A stretch of 37,559 nucleotides of DNA from Zetaproteobacteria bacterium CG1_02_55_237 (GTDB lineage: Bacteria; Pseudomonadota; Zetaproteobacteria; Mariprofundales; Mariprofundaceae). The DNA lies in contig MNXA01000005.1 in the NCBI GenBank assembly GCA_001871195.1, positions 1 through 37,559 of the forward strand. The letters are read 5' to 3'. The translations under genes and the position numbers were made by a program. Positions 20,162 to 35,592 of the stretch are shown piece after piece. Numbering within the stretch: position 1 is the first letter of the stretch; each line of letters starts with the position of its first letter. The notes under the pieces are model-generated. The model did not search any database. It was not told the origin of the DNA and saw nothing but the letters and a program-made list of their open reading frames with translations.

Positions 20162-20251
20162 TGGCGGAGAGAGAGGGATTCGAACCCTCGATACGGTAAC
20201 CCGTATAACACCTTAGCAGGGTGCCGCTTTCGACCACTCAGCCATCTCTCC
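20162..20251 (-). tRNA. tRNA-Ser (anticodon GCT)
   Basis: A 90-nt class II tRNA. Acceptor GGAGAGA/TCTCTCC, anticodon loop CTGCTAA (GCT), a long variable arm (TACGGGTTACCGTA), T-arm GAGGG-TTCGAAT-CCCTC, discriminator G and encoded CCA. It lies upstream of the lipoprotein gene on the same strand. Confidence 0.97.
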
Positions 20252-20378: not shown

Positions 20379-20494
20379 CTGGCGGAAGGGGTGGGATTAC
20401 TCGGGCTTTGCCCTCGCCCTGCGGGCCGCCACAAGTGGCGTTCAAATCAGCATGCCGATTTGTCGAACCACAATCGCGGGTTCTCACCCACCCC
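20379..20494 (-). repeat. Four-hairpin element ending in a tRNA-Ser-like 3' end
   Basis: A 116-bp structured segment between the two tRNA-Ser genes. An outer stem (GGGGTGGG 20388-20395 with CCCACCCC 20487-20494) encloses four hairpins: GGGC/GCCC at 403-413, GCCC/GGGC at 416-426, CGCCAC/GTGGCG at 427-440 and CAAATC/GATTTG at 443-462 (all plus 20000). Its outer 20 bp (20379-20398) duplicate the 3' end of tRNA-Ser(TGA) at 20547-20566 exactly. It is not a functional tRNA: it lacks D and anticodon arms. The design suggests a small tRNA-targeted or tRNA-derived mobile element; I cannot name the family. Confidence 0.6.
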
Positions 20495-20547
20495 GCACCT
20501 TCTACCAAGCCTTCCGGCAATATATCCAACACTTTCTCAATCACAAC

Positions 20548-20635
20548 TGGCGGAAGGGGTGGGATTCGAACCCACGAAGAGTTGCCCCTTGCCGGTTTTC
20601 AAGACCGGTGCCTTCAACCGCTCGGCCACCCTTCC
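20548..20635 (-). tRNA. tRNA-Ser (anticodon TGA)
   Basis: An 88-nt class II tRNA. Acceptor GGAAGGG/CCCTTCC, anticodon stem CCGGT/ACCGG around CTTGAAA (TGA), long variable arm, T-arm GTGGG-TTCGAAT-CCCAC, discriminator G and encoded CCA. It is the first gene of the minus-strand tRNA group. The 171 bp between it and the next gene should hold its promoter. Confidence 0.97.
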
Positions 20636-30174: not shown

Positions 30175-31659
30175 TTGATACGCTTCCCGTACATCCCACT
30201 CTGCCTGACGCTGCTCTGCTTTTCTGCCCAGGCTGATGCACAGGAACTCTCTCTGAGCAATGTCGTGCAGGCAGTACTGCAACAGAACCCTAATCTCAGC
30301 CTAAGCCGAACCGACACTGCCATTGCTGCTGCGGATGAGCAGCGGGTGCAGGGACTTCTGGACACCAGCATCAACGGCAGCATCAGCGGCAGCGACGAAC
30401 AGATACCGGTAGCCAGCGACTTTCAGGCTGCCGAAAACCGCATACTGCAAATCAATGGCGGGATCAGCCAACCGCTGAGCAATGGCGATACGCTGGGGAT
30501 ACAGGCCAGCTATTCGCGCAGCGGTCAGGCCTTTACTTCACCCCTGGCTGCTCAACTGGCCCGCTTCAACCCGGCCTACCGTTCGCAAATCGATGTCACC
30601 TACCGCCATGCCCTGCTGCGCGGTGCCGACCGCCCCGATTATTCGCTGGGCCTCGAATCGGTACAGGCGAAAACAGAGGCAGCCAGCCTAAGCGAGTATA
30701 TCGTCGCCCGTACGCTGGCCCTGTCGGCACTGAATGCCTTTTTCCGTCTGGCATCGGATGACATCAACGTCACCATCGCCCGGCAGGCTGTCGAGCGTGC
30801 CCGTCAGGTGTTGCGCTATCAGAAATACCGGCAGGAATTCGGTCTGATCGAACAGGCCGAGGCCTTGCAGGCCGAGGCACTTCTCGCGGCACGCCAGACC
30901 GACCTGCAACGCGCGCATGCGGCACGGCAAATGGATGCAAGCGCCCTAAGTCGCCTGATGCTGCGCAAAACAGGTCAGAATATTTCCCTGACCCTGCCAC
31001 CACTTTCGGCAAGCGCATCGACTCCCGACATCGACGCGGCTGAAAAAACAGCCCTCGTGCAGCGCCCCGATGTCAGGGCTGTGGATGCCCGCCTGAAAGC
31101 AGCCGAGGCCGATCTCGCCGCAGCACAGGATATCGACAGCACGCAACTGGATGTCGTGGCACAGCTCGGCACACGCTCCCTGGATGGCAAACCGGCCCCT
31201 GCTGCGGCACAAGGATTCTCGGTAAACGACCGCTTCGCATCCCTGTCGCTGGAGATGCAGGACAGTCTGGGCCGCAACAGCGCGAAAGCAGCCATCCGCA
31301 AGGCGGAGCTGGCACGACAGCGCCTGAGCGATCAGCGCCAGCAATCACTGGAACAAATCCGTGATGATCTGTCCGCAGCCATCAATGCCATCGATACCGG
31401 CATTCCGAGCCTGCGCATGGCACGCCTGCAGGCAATTGCCGAGCAGAAGAAATATCAGTCTGAACTGAGTCGTTACCGCGAAGGGCGCTCGAATACGGCA
31501 ACAGTGGTGCAATTCGAGGGCGAGCTGCGCAATGCCGAATTGCAGGAGCGACTGCAACAACTGACCCTGCAGTTGGCGCACTACCAGTTGGCCTGGGCTC
31601 AGGGCAGCCTGTTGAAAGATCTCGGCATCGAACTCCATGAAGGCGCAGGACAACCATGA
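30175..31659 (+). CDS. TolC-family outer-membrane efflux protein
   Basis: A 494-residue exit duct for an efflux or secretion system. A signal peptide (RFPYIPLCLTLLCF, cut near AQADA) is followed by two repeats with long alpha-helices, as in TolC, for example YSLGLESVQAKTEAASLSEY and DVRAVDARLKAAEADLAAAQ. There is no upstream in-frame start: a TGA at 30160 closes the frame, so translation must begin at the TTG at 30175. The stop overlaps the RND pump start (ATGA), so the two genes form a pair. Substrate unknown. Confidence 0.9.
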   Translation: MIRFPYIPLCLTLLCFSAQADAQELSLSNVVQAVLQQNPNLSLSRTDTAIAAADEQRVQGLLDTSINGSISGSDEQIPVASDFQAAENRILQINGGISQPLSNGDTLGIQASYSRSGQAFTSPLAAQLARFNPAYRSQIDVTYRHALLRGADRPDYSLGLESVQAKTEAASLSEYIVARTLALSALNAFFRLASDDINVTIARQAVERARQVLRYQKYRQEFGLIEQAEALQAEALLAARQTDLQRAHAARQMDASALSRLMLRKTGQNISLTLPPLSASASTPDIDAAEKTALVQRPDVRAVDARLKAAEADLAAAQDIDSTQLDVVAQLGTRSLDGKPAPAAAQGFSVNDRFASLSLEMQDSLGRNSAKAAIRKAELARQRLSDQRQQSLEQIRDDLSAAINAIDTGIPSLRMARLQAIAEQKKYQSELSRYREGRSNTATVVQFEGELRNAELQERLQQLTLQLAHYQLAWAQGSLLKDLGIELHEGAGQP

Positions 31660-34600
31660 AGACCGCCATTGCCTTCTTCGTGCGCCACGGCCTGCTGGTC
31701 AACCTGCTATCCCTGATGCTGCTGGCTGGTGGCATATACGCCGGCGCCAATATCCAGCGAGAGGCCTTCCCCAGCGTTAATTTCGATGTAATTGTCGTGG
31801 TAGCAGTCTACCCGGGCACTGCACCCCGCGAAGTTGAGCAACTGCTGCTCACTCCCATTGAGCGGGAACTCAAGGGCATCGACGGCATCAATGTTATTCG
31901 CGCCACGGCTTTCGCCGGCTCCATGCAGATAACCATCGAGGTGGATCCGAACTACAAGGATCGCTCGCGGCTGGTTTCCGATATCCAGCAGGCCATCAAC
32001 CGCGCTGATTTGCCGCTGGATCTACCTGCCGATCCGGTGATTACCGAGATTAAATCCGAGCAGGCGCCGGTGCTCACCTTCTCCATCTTCGGCGATTTCG
32101 ATCCGCTGACGCTAAAACGGCTGGGCGACAAAATTGAGGACGATGTGCTGGGTCTCAAGGGCGTTGCCAAAATACTCGTTCAGGGGGATCGCAAGGAGGA
32201 AATCCGCATCGTTCCCGACCCGGAAAAAATGCGTCAGCAACGCATCTCCACCAATGATCTGATTGCCTTGATTCGCGGCTGGAATATCAATGCGCCCGGC
32301 GGCCGCCTGAAAGCTCCCGATGGGCAACGCATTATCCGCATCACCGGCGAATTCACCTCGGCACAGGATGCAGCGAATCTTGTGCTGCGCGCCAACGACC
32401 TGGGCCAAGTGGTTCGCCTTGGCGATATCGCCGAGGTCACCCAGACGCTGGAGCGAGCAGAACGTTATGTCGGCGCGCAGGGTGATCCGGCGCTGAATAT
32501 GATCGTGCTGAAAAAAGGTGATAGCGATATCATTGAACTGGTGGATCGCGTGCGCGCTTACCTTGATACAGTGCCGGAGAAATACGGCGCAGGTGTGAAT
32601 GTCCGCGTGTACAACGACATGTCCACCATCACCCGCCTGCGCCTTGGCGTGCTCACCCAGAACGGCGCCATCGGCCTTGCCCTGGTATTGCTTACCCTGA
32701 TGCTCTTCCTGCGCCCTGCCGTGGCCCTGACCACGGCCTGGGGCCTGCCCATCATCTTTTTCTCCGGCCTGCTGGTGCTGTTTCTCTCCGGTGTGACACT
32801 GAACCTGTTGACCATGTTCGGTTTTATCATGGTGCTCGGCCTGATGGTGGACGATGCCATCATCATCGGCGAAAACGCCACCTGGCATATGGAACAGGGT
32901 CTGCCGCCCGAAGAGGCCGTGATCACCGGAACCCATGAGCTGCTCGGCCCCGTATCAGCCACAGTGCTGACCACCATCGTCGCCTTCCTGCCGCTGATGT
33001 ATATGGACGGCATCATCGGCAAGTTTATTTATTCCATCCCTGTGGTGGTGGTCACCCTGCTGCTGTTTTCCTGGGTGGAAGCCATTTTTATCCTGCCCAA
33101 TCATATCCGCGACATAGCCCATGCCAACAAACACCCCAAGGAAAGGGCTCTGTTTGTCTGGATTACAGATATCTATGCATGGTGGCTGGAAAAGGCGGTC
33201 AAACTCCGTTATCTAACCATTCTCCTGACCATACTGGGGCTTGCGGGTACAGCCATGCTGGCTTCGACAATGAAATTCCAGCTCTTCCCCTCAGGTGCCG
33301 AATCCACCTTCTATCTGCGTGTCACCATGCCCATCGGCACCACACTGGAAGAGATGCAGGCGCAGTTGAAGGTACTGGATATCGAGGTAAGGAAGCGCAT
33401 CGACCCGGCCCTGCTTGAAACCACTACCATGGTGGCCGGAGAAAACAGTGCCGATCAGCGCGAGTCGCTCAAGCAAATCGGTGACCGTTTCGGTTTTGAG
33501 CGGGTGATTCTGATTCCATTCACCGAGCGCACCATTTCAGCCTATAGCGCGATGGAAAAAATCGAAAAGGAAATACCGCCCCTGTTCCCCAATCTGGACA
33601 TCAGTTTCGCCGTGGAGCGTGCCGGACCGCCCGTAGGACGCGCCCTGCAGGTCGAACTGACCGGCAGCGACGAAGCGGCCATGGTTCGCACCGCCAAACG
33701 CCTGATGCGCGCATTGCAGGACATCCCCGGTGCGATGGCGATTGAAAGTGATCTGGAGCCGGGCGACCCGGAAATCCATATCGTGCTGGATCGCAAACTG
33801 GCTGCCTATGCAGGTGTCGATCTGGCTACGGTCGCCACGCATGTACGCGCCGCCTTCGATGGCCTGCGCATCTCAACGCTGAAACATGGCAAGGAAGAGG
33901 TGGATGTCACCATCCGTTTTGCCGAAGCAGCGCGCCACGATCCTGCAACCCTGATGCAGCTGGAGGTACCCAACCTTTTCGGCGGGCTGGTGCCGCTGTC
34001 GCGCATTGCGCATCTCGAGGAATTGCCCGGCACCACCAGTATCCGGCATAAGGATGGCGATCGTGTCATCAATGTCTCCGCCGAGGTCGATCACAAGCTC
34101 ATCACATCCAAGGAGTTGAACGACAAGGTTGCCGCCATGCAGGAGCAATGGCTGGGTGAGGATGCAGGCAGGCTGCACACGCATCTGGGCGGTGAGGAAG
34201 AACGCAGTCAGGAATCTGTGCGCGGTCTGGCCTTCAGCTTTCTGTTTGCGCTGGCCGGCATCTTTGTGATTCTGGCCATCCAGTTCAATCGCATCAGCTA
34301 TCCGATTCTGGTCATGCTGGCCATTCCCTTCGGCGCCATCGGCATCATCGTCGGCTTCTTCCTGCACGGACAGCCGCTGTCCTTCATGGCTCTGATGGGT
34401 TTTGTCGCTCTCACCGGCGTGGTGGTCAATGCCTCCCTGGTTATGGCGGTATTCATCCAGCGCCTGATTGATGACGGCGTGGCGTGGCGCGAAGCCATTC
34501 TCGAAAGCGGCAAACGCCGCCTGCGCGCTGTGCTGTTAACCGCCATCACCACCGTGGTTGGCCTTCTACCCACCGCCTATGGCTGGGGTGGCCACGATCC

Positions 34601-34763
34601 CTTTGTGGCACCGATGGCGCTGGCCCTTTCCTGGGGCCTGATGTTCTCCACCGTCATCACCCTCTTCTCGGTACCCGCAGCTCTCGGCATTGCGCTGGAC
34701 TGCAAGGACCTGTTGTGCAAAATTGCGCGCAAGCTTCGCCCGCAACGACAGCTGGCCAATTAG
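31656..34763 (+). CDS. RND-family efflux transporter (AcrB/MdtC-like)
   Basis: A 1035-residue inner-membrane pump. It shows the RND design: TM1, a large periplasmic loop, TM2-6, a second periplasmic loop and TM8-12. The proton-relay Asp pair is present in TM4 (D399 and D400 in LMVDDAI). The TM10 Lys seen in AcrB is not obvious: the matching helix reads LTGVVVNASLVMA. The porter motif (REAFPSVNFD) and the VYPGTAPREVE segment are typical. Its start overlaps the TolC-like gene. No membrane-fusion protein gene lies between or beside them, although RND pumps normally need one. Confidence 0.92.
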   Translation: MKTAIAFFVRHGLLVNLLSLMLLAGGIYAGANIQREAFPSVNFDVIVVVAVYPGTAPREVEQLLLTPIERELKGIDGINVIRATAFAGSMQITIEVDPNYKDRSRLVSDIQQAINRADLPLDLPADPVITEIKSEQAPVLTFSIFGDFDPLTLKRLGDKIEDDVLGLKGVAKILVQGDRKEEIRIVPDPEKMRQQRISTNDLIALIRGWNINAPGGRLKAPDGQRIIRITGEFTSAQDAANLVLRANDLGQVVRLGDIAEVTQTLERAERYVGAQGDPALNMIVLKKGDSDIIELVDRVRAYLDTVPEKYGAGVNVRVYNDMSTITRLRLGVLTQNGAIGLALVLLTLMLFLRPAVALTTAWGLPIIFFSGLLVLFLSGVTLNLLTMFGFIMVLGLMVDDAIIIGENATWHMEQGLPPEEAVITGTHELLGPVSATVLTTIVAFLPLMYMDGIIGKFIYSIPVVVVTLLLFSWVEAIFILPNHIRDIAHANKHPKERALFVWITDIYAWWLEKAVKLRYLTILLTILGLAGTAMLASTMKFQLFPSGAESTFYLRVTMPIGTTLEEMQAQLKVLDIEVRKRIDPALLETTTMVAGENSADQRESLKQIGDRFGFERVILIPFTERTISAYSAMEKIEKEIPPLFPNLDISFAVERAGPPVGRALQVELTGSDEAAMVRTAKRLMRALQDIPGAMAIESDLEPGDPEIHIVLDRKLAAYAGVDLATVATHVRAAFDGLRISTLKHGKEEVDVTIRFAEAARHDPATLMQLEVPNLFGGLVPLSRIAHLEELPGTTSIRHKDGDRVINVSAEVDHKLITSKELNDKVAAMQEQWLGEDAGRLHTHLGGEEERSQESVRGLAFSFLFALAGIFVILAIQFNRISYPILVMLAIPFGAIGIIVGFFLHGQPLSFMALMGFVALTGVVVNASLVMAVFIQRLIDDGVAWREAILESGKRRLRAVLLTAITTVVGLLPTAYGWGGHDPFVAPMALALSWGLMFSTVITLFSVPAALGIALDCKDLLCKIARKLRPQRQLAN

Positions 34764-34782
34764 TATAAAAACCAGCGCAAGT

Positions 34783-34801
34783 TGGTCTCTGCGGAAGACC
34801 A
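34783..34801 (+). other. Small hairpin in the 3' region of the efflux operon
   Basis: A 6-bp stem (TGGTCT at 34783-34788 with AGACCA at 34796-34801) and a 7-base loop lie 20 bases after the RND stop. No T-run follows, so it is not an intrinsic terminator; it may protect the message end. Confidence 0.4.
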
Positions 34802-34842
34802 TTTAACGTAAAGAAATCTTAATATGCATTTAATAACGAATT

Positions 34843-34957
34843 AAGCGCCACCCCCCTACTGTTCGGTCTGGTTCGGCGCCGCCCTCCTCTTCCCCTCCCT
34901 CCCCTTGGCGTCGAACGTTTGAATAAAGCTCCGGTATTTATACCGGAGCTTTTTCTT
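34843..34957 (+). ncRNA. Candidate small RNA with a C/U-rich anti-SD loop
   Basis: A stem of 10 bp (GTTCGGCGCC 34871-34880 with GGCGTCGAAC 34907-34916, one G-U pair) carries a 26-base loop made almost only of C and T, including CCTCC and CCCTCCC. Ten bases on, a perfect 12-bp hairpin with TTTT ends the unit. An A/T-rich stretch upstream has TAATAT (34820-34825) and TAATAA (34831-34836), possible -10 boxes, so transcription may begin near 34840. No open frame of interest covers it. C/U-rich loops that pair with Shine-Dalgarno sequences are known in several bacterial sRNAs; the present RNA is inferred. It might instead be only the 3' end of the efflux mRNA. Confidence 0.5.
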
Positions 34958-34958
34958 T
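34921..34958 (+). terminator. Strong intrinsic terminator
   Basis: A perfect 12-bp inverted repeat (AAAGCTCCGGTA at 34925-34936 and TACCGGAGCTTT at 34941-34952), loop TTTA, followed by a T-rich run (TTTTCTTT) on the plus strand. It would end the efflux operon and the candidate small RNA. Confidence 0.9.
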
Positions 34959-35010
34959 GTGGATAATGAGAACATTCATGACGGCTCTTGCGTGGGGACC
35001 CACACACAAT

Positions 35011-35040
35011 AAAAAACCCGGCTCGTCGGCCGGGCTTTTC
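35011..35040 (-). terminator. Intrinsic terminator of the SRPBCC gene
   Basis: CCCGGC (35017-35022) and GCCGGG (35029-35034) form a stem with a 6-base loop. On the minus strand it is followed by TTTTTTATT; on the plus strand by TTTT, so it may work in both directions. Confidence 0.85.
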
Positions 35041-35061
35041 AGGACTGTCATGTTCGACTCG

Positions 35062-35505
35062 TTACTGACTCTCGAGAATATCCTTGAGAATCTCAAAATC
35101 AGTCTCGAACTCACGACGGATGGTTCGCTCTACAACCGGTTCGGCAAGTTTGAAGAAGTGGCCAATATCCACCTTCAACGAACGTGTCACGCGCGTGCCT
35201 CCATCAATCTCGGTATAGCGCATCTCGGCTTCCATCTTCAGCGGGCCCGAAGTGGTGCGCGATTTCCAGTAATGTTCATTGGCTGTGTGTTCGATTACCT
35301 CCCAGTCCTGCTCCCACAGACGACCGAGAAATTTCGCCTTCACATGGTAAATCGTGCCAACCTGAACCGGCCCGCCCGTGCTTCGCCTGGATTCCATCAC
35401 CGAGGACTGCCACAGAGGATCGTTATCGCTGTCATCCAGAAAATCGTGCACCTCTGCAAATGGGCGCTTGATATCAACACTTACTTCAACCTTGCTTTTC
35501 GACAT
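35062..35505 (-). CDS. SRPBCC (START-like) ligand-binding protein
   Basis: A 147-residue protein of the SRPBCC/polyketide-cyclase superfamily, whose members bind small hydrophobic ligands in a helix-grip fold. Typical features are the N-terminal strand with DIKRPFAEVHDFLDDSDND, the WQSSV helix region, a central run of strands (KFLGRLWEQDWEV, YTEIDGGTRVTRS) and the long C-terminal helix (ERTIRREFETDFEILKDIL). ATG 35505 is preceded by GGAGGAGAGGG, a good Shine-Dalgarno sequence. It has its own terminator. The ligand and role are unknown. Confidence 0.85.
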   Translation of the reverse strand: MSKSKVEVSVDIKRPFAEVHDFLDDSDNDPLWQSSVMESRRSTGGPVQVGTIYHVKAKFLGRLWEQDWEVIEHTANEHYWKSRTTSGPLKMEAEMRYTEIDGGTRVTRSLKVDIGHFFKLAEPVVERTIRREFETDFEILKDILESQ

Positions 35506-35592
35506 CCCTCTCCTCCTCATTATATGACTCTTCTTGTTGCCATAGAGCCAAAACCATTCCCACGCATATGATGAAACTTTCCAAATGCCAAC

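Follow-up and report, generated by a model that had tools for sequence, protein, structure and literature searches.

In Firmicutes, RsaE/RoxS and the other UCCC-motif sRNAs direct C-rich exposed seeds against Shine-Dalgarno (SD) regions, and a C/U motif is also carried by the CcsR sRNAs of Rhodobacter sphaeroides. To our knowledge, Helicobacter pylori, the host of the sRNA RepG, has no Hfq. RepG uses a C/U-rich loop to pair with a G-rich mRNA leader (PMC8295292). CcsR1-4, encoded at the CIN1 locus, are stress related, occur as tandem sRNA copies and are processed from one RpoHI/HII transcript together with the DUF1127 gene ccaF1 (PMC10253847). In Alphaproteobacteria, the cuckoo RNAs, or alpha-r14 family, include SmelA075, SmelA099 and NfeR1. 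These RNAs have conserved CCUCCUCCC anti-SD loops, share a promoter motif and are under the control of stress, and NfeR1 is Hfq-independent (PMC10746234, PMC3927594, PMC7143759). More generally, sRNAs of other bacteria use anti-SD loops to block ribosome-binding sites (PMC10746234, PMC3927594).

The locus considered here lies in a stretch of 37,559 nucleotides, hereafter the window, from the genome of Zetaproteobacteria bacterium CG1_02_55_237 (2.33 Mb). It is bordered by a gene for an RND efflux transporter (PF00873 ACR_tran; 31656-34763, + strand) and by a convergent SRPBCC-type gene (35062-35520, - strand), and no protein gene is evident between 34763 and 35062, in agreement with the initial annotation. 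Judging from sequence comparisons, the hairpin at 34870-34957 belongs to an sRNA family that had not been catalogued before and that has members in almost all iron-oxidising Zetaproteobacteria sequenced. The preferred reading, to which we give a probability of about 0.66, is that 34870-34957 encodes a trans-acting anti-SD sRNA of about 88 nt, belonging to a multicopy family that would be induced by a two-component response regulator and whose loop would repress translation.

The unit comprises two hairpins on the + strand. The first, the seed hairpin, has a 10-bp stem with one G-U pair (34871-34880 / 34907-34916) and a 26-nt pyrimidine loop (34881-34906) with copies of CCCUCC and CCUCC, which is the predicted seed against GGAGG-type ribosome-binding sites. 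Every base of the loop is C or T apart from the initial G, and the 25 nt at 34882-34906 form the sole all-pyrimidine or all-purine run of at least 18 nt in the 37.6-kb window; among random 26-mers from related loci, 0.04% are at least 90% pyrimidine. The second hairpin, a perfect 12-bp stem at 34925-34952, forms an intrinsic terminator with its T tract (34925-34957), as the initial annotation had recognised. The stem and C/T loop that it had also reported are indeed present at 34871-34916, and the folding energy of 34843-34957 (-39.1 kcal/mol, z = -4.6) lies below that of all 200 shuffles.

Three other species of the genus carry the element. The loop, CCCTCCTCTTCCCCTCCCTCCCC, is unchanged in three species and lacks a single base in the fourth, so that its loss in close relatives, which would have spoken against the sRNA, is not observed; it is the best-conserved part of the four-species alignment, in which the flanks diverge. 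Across homologues the loop ranges from 17 to 29 nt, with CCTCCC or CCCTCC inside it in 67 of 69 homologues and TCCCCTCCCT in 46 of the 69; the motif of the window loop is CCCUCCUC..CCCCUCCCUCCCC.

Covariation was evaluated on an alignment of 69 homologues. Compensatory changes, in which both sides of a pair differ, were found at 17 of 19 pairs over both helices: 9 of the 9 counted terminator pairs and 8 of the 10 stem pairs, where a lack of such changes had been named beforehand as a sign against the structure. In the seed stem, 98.5% of cells are paired. Over both helices, 143 cells changed on both sides (30.5 in shuffles) and 97.7% of cells were paired (33-48.5% in slid controls), cell counts that overstate the independent events, many homologues being close relatives. 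The four genus sequences alone contain compensatory change at three stem pairs. Covariation thus shows the hairpin and the terminator to be selected RNA structures. It also bears on the idea that the functional strand is the G-rich complement, as a G-quadruplex in DNA or as an antisense RNA. The - strand does read GGGGAGGGAGGGGAAGAGGAGGG, but the covariation belongs to the + strand RNA hairpin, and the promoter, its -10 element and the T tract all give the unit a + strand orientation, which makes this explanation very improbable.

The distribution of the family was explored with two covariance models. The first (R1), built from the window sequence and those of the three other species of the genus, detected homologues in 65 of the 74 genomes of the bacterial family, often several per genome and sometimes in tandem. 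The second (R2), built after alignment of the 69 curated homologues, found them in 71 of the 78 genomes of the order, spread over all three families and 16 of the 18 genera, mostly with E below 1e-8, E-values from models built here being rough. The match of R2 to the window (34870-34960, 68.9 bits, E 6e-13) concerns one of its own building sequences. Outside the order, in a phylum-wide genome sample, the best E was 6.6e-6, with weak, chance-like scores. These matches are treated as background and may be chance matches to terminators, although the boundary of the family is not sharp. Two matches were discarded on inspection: in one genome (G057) the match was merely a C/T-rich stretch with the element absent, and in another (G020) it covered the terminator only. 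An exact 20-mer scan of 84,980 genomes returned 8 stretches, of which 3 are Zetaproteobacterial homologues; the other 5 are in unrelated organisms and were taken as chance.

No Rfam 15 family matched 34764-35062 at its gathering score, nor did any match the sRNA in 20 homologous loci, and a search at E up to 10 returned sub-threshold matches only. The best of these on the + strand was RsaE/RoxS (RF01820), whose 22.9 bits against a cut-off of 79 led us to reject membership. Elsewhere in the window, an RtT RNA (RF00391) was detected at 20380-20507 (- strand; 66 bits, cut-off 45), flanked by tRNA-Ser genes at 20548-20635 and 20162-20251 (- strand). RtT was originally reported from the tyrT locus of E. 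coli, and its occurrence between serine tRNAs in Zetaproteobacteria is curious.

Genomes of the order harbour several copies, often in tandem and sometimes in arrays of two or three. In the window genome, a second full copy (G000:C14:20827-20909, - strand; locus L052) lies near a tRNA gene and is convergent with an endonuclease/exonuclease/phosphatase-like gene, a context that, with the same downstream gene, is common to the three genus relatives. A divergent subfamily with the stem GTCCGGAGC..CCTCCGGAC occurs in L136, L138, L142, L156, L148-L150 and L154 (at about position 1500). Copy numbers are lower bounds, because this subfamily turned up through the promoter pattern described below rather than through R1; some of its copies score with R2. 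Multiple copies, sometimes in tandem arrays, are also what a mobile or repetitive element of the REP or MITE type, spreading as hairpins, would leave behind. Such an origin is disfavoured and would be quite surprising: there are just a few copies per genome, almost all genomes of the order have them, the same gene context is found across genera, and promoter, stem and loop are all kept.

The gene context raises another alternative, that the element forms the conserved 3' terminus of the mRNA of the RND efflux operon, with a terminator and a stabilising hairpin perhaps processed into an sRNA. The same RND gene is the upstream neighbour in 27 of the analysed neighbourhoods, in at least eight genera, mostly about 50-160 nt away, and the element stands behind it in all four species of the genus. 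A search of the window for further + strand terminators between the RND stop codon and 34925 found none, and the sRNA terminator may therefore also end the efflux operon. Nevertheless, many copies do not stand behind an RND gene. Their neighbours vary and, as named by eye, include genes resembling an antiporter and HflC, among others; 14 or more copies lie downstream of a substantial opposite-strand gene and thus need a promoter of their own. In addition, a promoter of fixed geometry separates the gene from the hairpin. The suggestion of the initial annotation that the RNA could derive from the efflux mRNA by 3'-end processing is therefore a poor fit as the main explanation, as many homologues lie behind opposite-strand genes and nearly all have their own promoter; we regard it as improbable.

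This promoter was delineated by aligning the upstream regions of 73 homologues. The predicted -10 element of the window copy is TACTGT (34857-34862, + strand), for a family consensus of TAnnnT, often TATAGT, TAATGT or TAAAGT, and in nearly all aligned promoters it sits 7-8 bases ahead of the stem. From this position, the predicted start is at about 34870, and with the end given by the terminator the predicted transcript spans 34870-34957 (+ strand, about 88 nt). The start at 34843 that had been proposed earlier falls inside the promoter and is too early: conservation and promoter both give about 34870. The proposal of a discrete sRNA, on the other hand, is strongly supported, with a stem that covaries and a loop that is conserved in the genus.

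Upstream of the -10 element is a predicted response-regulator box of direct repeats 11 bp apart (34818-34845, + strand), seen in the sequence, in the family logo and as a matrix peak. Its half-sites in the window are CTTAAT (34818-34823), TTTAAT (34829-34834) and ATTAAG (34840-34845), and the family logo has conserved T-A/C-A cores at -47, -36, -25 and -14 from the -10 element, exactly 11 bp apart; the distance from box to -10 element is one base longer in the window copy than in the family consensus. The matrix peak of the window lies at the box, with a score of 16.9, whereas five shuffled windows reached 5.7 at most; the window copy is, however, one of the 68 training sites of the matrix. 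A pattern made from the promoter alone found 25 sites in 12 genomes, compared with 3 for the reversed control, and 21 of the 25 are directly followed by a C/U-loop hairpin, including divergent members with other stem sequences that were not used in the alignment. Although the pattern was derived from these same loci, the concordance depends little on the RNA model. Taken together, the aligned upstream regions show that the family possesses a promoter of its own at a fixed position.

Half-sites spaced by 11 bp in place of a -35 box are the arrangement of sites for response regulators of the OmpR/PhoB family, and the direct repeats found here likewise stand at a fixed distance from the -10 element. 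Since the 11-bp half-sites replace the -35 element, we infer that a response regulator of this family activates transcription. The PhoB box consists of CTGTCAT-like repeats, which have the same spacing as the family box and different letters. PhoB itself was not adopted as the regulator: the porin-pstS promoter of the window genome has TGTCAT/TGTCAC half-sites, and the family promoter matrix, run over pstS regions, found nothing upstream of pstS. In this genome (contig C2, L166) and in another (G002, L160), a porin-like gene precedes a PstS-like gene and has TGTCATACGGGTGTCA(C/T) ten bases ahead of TAAT(C/G)T, which makes this motif a good Pho-box candidate for the lineage. The PmrA box has been defined as CTTAAG-N5-NTTAAT or CTTAAT-N5-CCTAAG (PMC3973317). 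The window sequence CTTAAT-N5-TTTAAT-N5-ATTAAG resembles it, and the family consensus is nearer TTTAAT..TTCAY. In two genomes of one genus (L135 and L155, both at about position 1500), the family promoter pattern precedes a short ORF whose product begins MKK(F/L)..LFAGFMMLA and which likely encodes a secreted or membrane protein; it is a candidate co-regulated gene that could reveal the regulator.

The function of the loop was approached by searching for complementary sequences. The initial annotation had taken GGAGG to be the SD sequence of many window genes; with a crude choice of starts, it precedes 5 of 36 ORFs, and any of AGGAG, GGAGG or GAGGA precedes 8 of 36. The interaction with ribosome-binding sites, which it had suggested predicting, was computed for the loop: start regions of window ORFs, with guessed start codons, gave a mean loop duplex energy of -13.5 kcal/mol versus -8.9 kcal/mol for coding interiors, but the reversed loop did almost equally well on the start regions (-13.0 kcal/mol), so these energies reflect purine-richness and not targets. 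Exact complements of the conserved core are mildly enriched (47 versus 25), but roughly one in three of the 47 is simply the antisense strand of an sRNA gene of the family; they are rarely at start codons, and no specific target emerged from them. The leader of the neighbouring SRPBCC-type gene (35497-35520, - strand) is unusually purine-rich, GAGGAGGAGAGGGATG, with about 7 bp complementary to the loop.

An alternative is an RNA that is real and regulated, but whose C/U loop binds a protein, as a sponge or a cofactor RNA, instead of pairing with SD sequences. The target tests, which gave no specific target, would agree with it, as would the variation of the loop between 17 and 29 nt and the rearranged order of CCUCC and CCCUCC, both reminiscent of a composition-based protein site. 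Conversely, hardly a base of the loop differs among the species of the genus, and its CCUCC core is the 16S anti-SD sequence; we also know of no C/U-binding regulator in Zetaproteobacteria. This alternative is thus rather unlikely, and pairing of the loop with SD sequences is the interpretation that we retain, on the grounds of complementarity. According to the corresponding model, a response regulator would switch the sRNA on under an envelope, metal or nutrient signal, and the exposed C/U loop would then pair with purine-rich SD regions, block 30S binding and lower translation of the target mRNAs. Paralogues with slightly different loops might divide the target set or reinforce it.

Neither classic sRNA chaperone was detected above cut-off in the 78 genomes of the order: Hfq (PF17209) was found in 0 of 78, with positive controls, and ProQ (PF04352) in 0 of 78, with a positive E. 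coli control. The class thus appears to be without both proteins, and the sRNA probably works without them. A rigid stem presenting a long G/C-rich seed would suit pairing under such conditions. It also follows that Hfq co-purification, put forward in the initial annotation, is inapplicable in this lineage.

A broader proposal, which we consider doubtful, is that of a class-wide regulon in which one response regulator drives sibling anti-SD sRNAs that lower ribosome binding broadly, and in which the family would be the principal base-pairing sRNA system of these bacteria. Given that many copies are located downstream of an RND efflux operon, the signal might be connected with metal or envelope stress. 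As a marker of almost the entire class with a regulator signature of its own, the family offers an entry to gene regulation in iron oxidisers, and it bears on how base-pairing sRNAs act without Hfq or ProQ.

Functionally, the family is nearest to the cuckoo/alpha-r14, CcsR, RepG and UCCC-motif RNAs, and its architecture differs from theirs. The cuckoo RNAs too are multicopy trans-acting sRNAs presenting anti-SD loops on variable stems; here, an unpaired anti-SD motif is present in 67 of 69 loops, on stems that covary. Cuckoo RNAs have three or four hairpins, each with the 9-nt motif CCUCCUCCC in its loop, whereas the present family has one hairpin with a 17-29-nt loop, which in the window lacks CCUCCUCCC, and a separate terminator; the stem sequences are different, the activator box is an 11-bp direct repeat, and no covariance-model link exists between the two. 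The CcsRs share the tandem organisation, but zetaproteobacterial copies each have their own promoter and terminator. RepG shares the C/U loop, which in its case is the loop of the terminator itself and mainly addresses the homopolymeric G tract of one operon, while here the loop belongs to a separate hairpin and matches an anti-SD sequence. Given this differing architecture, the failed assignments to alpha-r14 and to Rfam families, and the literature on Mariprofundus and Zetaproteobacteria, in which no description of an sRNA, small RNA or Hfq was found, the family would be a new variant within the anti-SD sRNAs. Its long G/C-rich pyrimidine loop, which a rigid stem holds open, suggests a convergent solution, given the resemblance to RepG and to the cuckoo and UCCC-motif RNAs.
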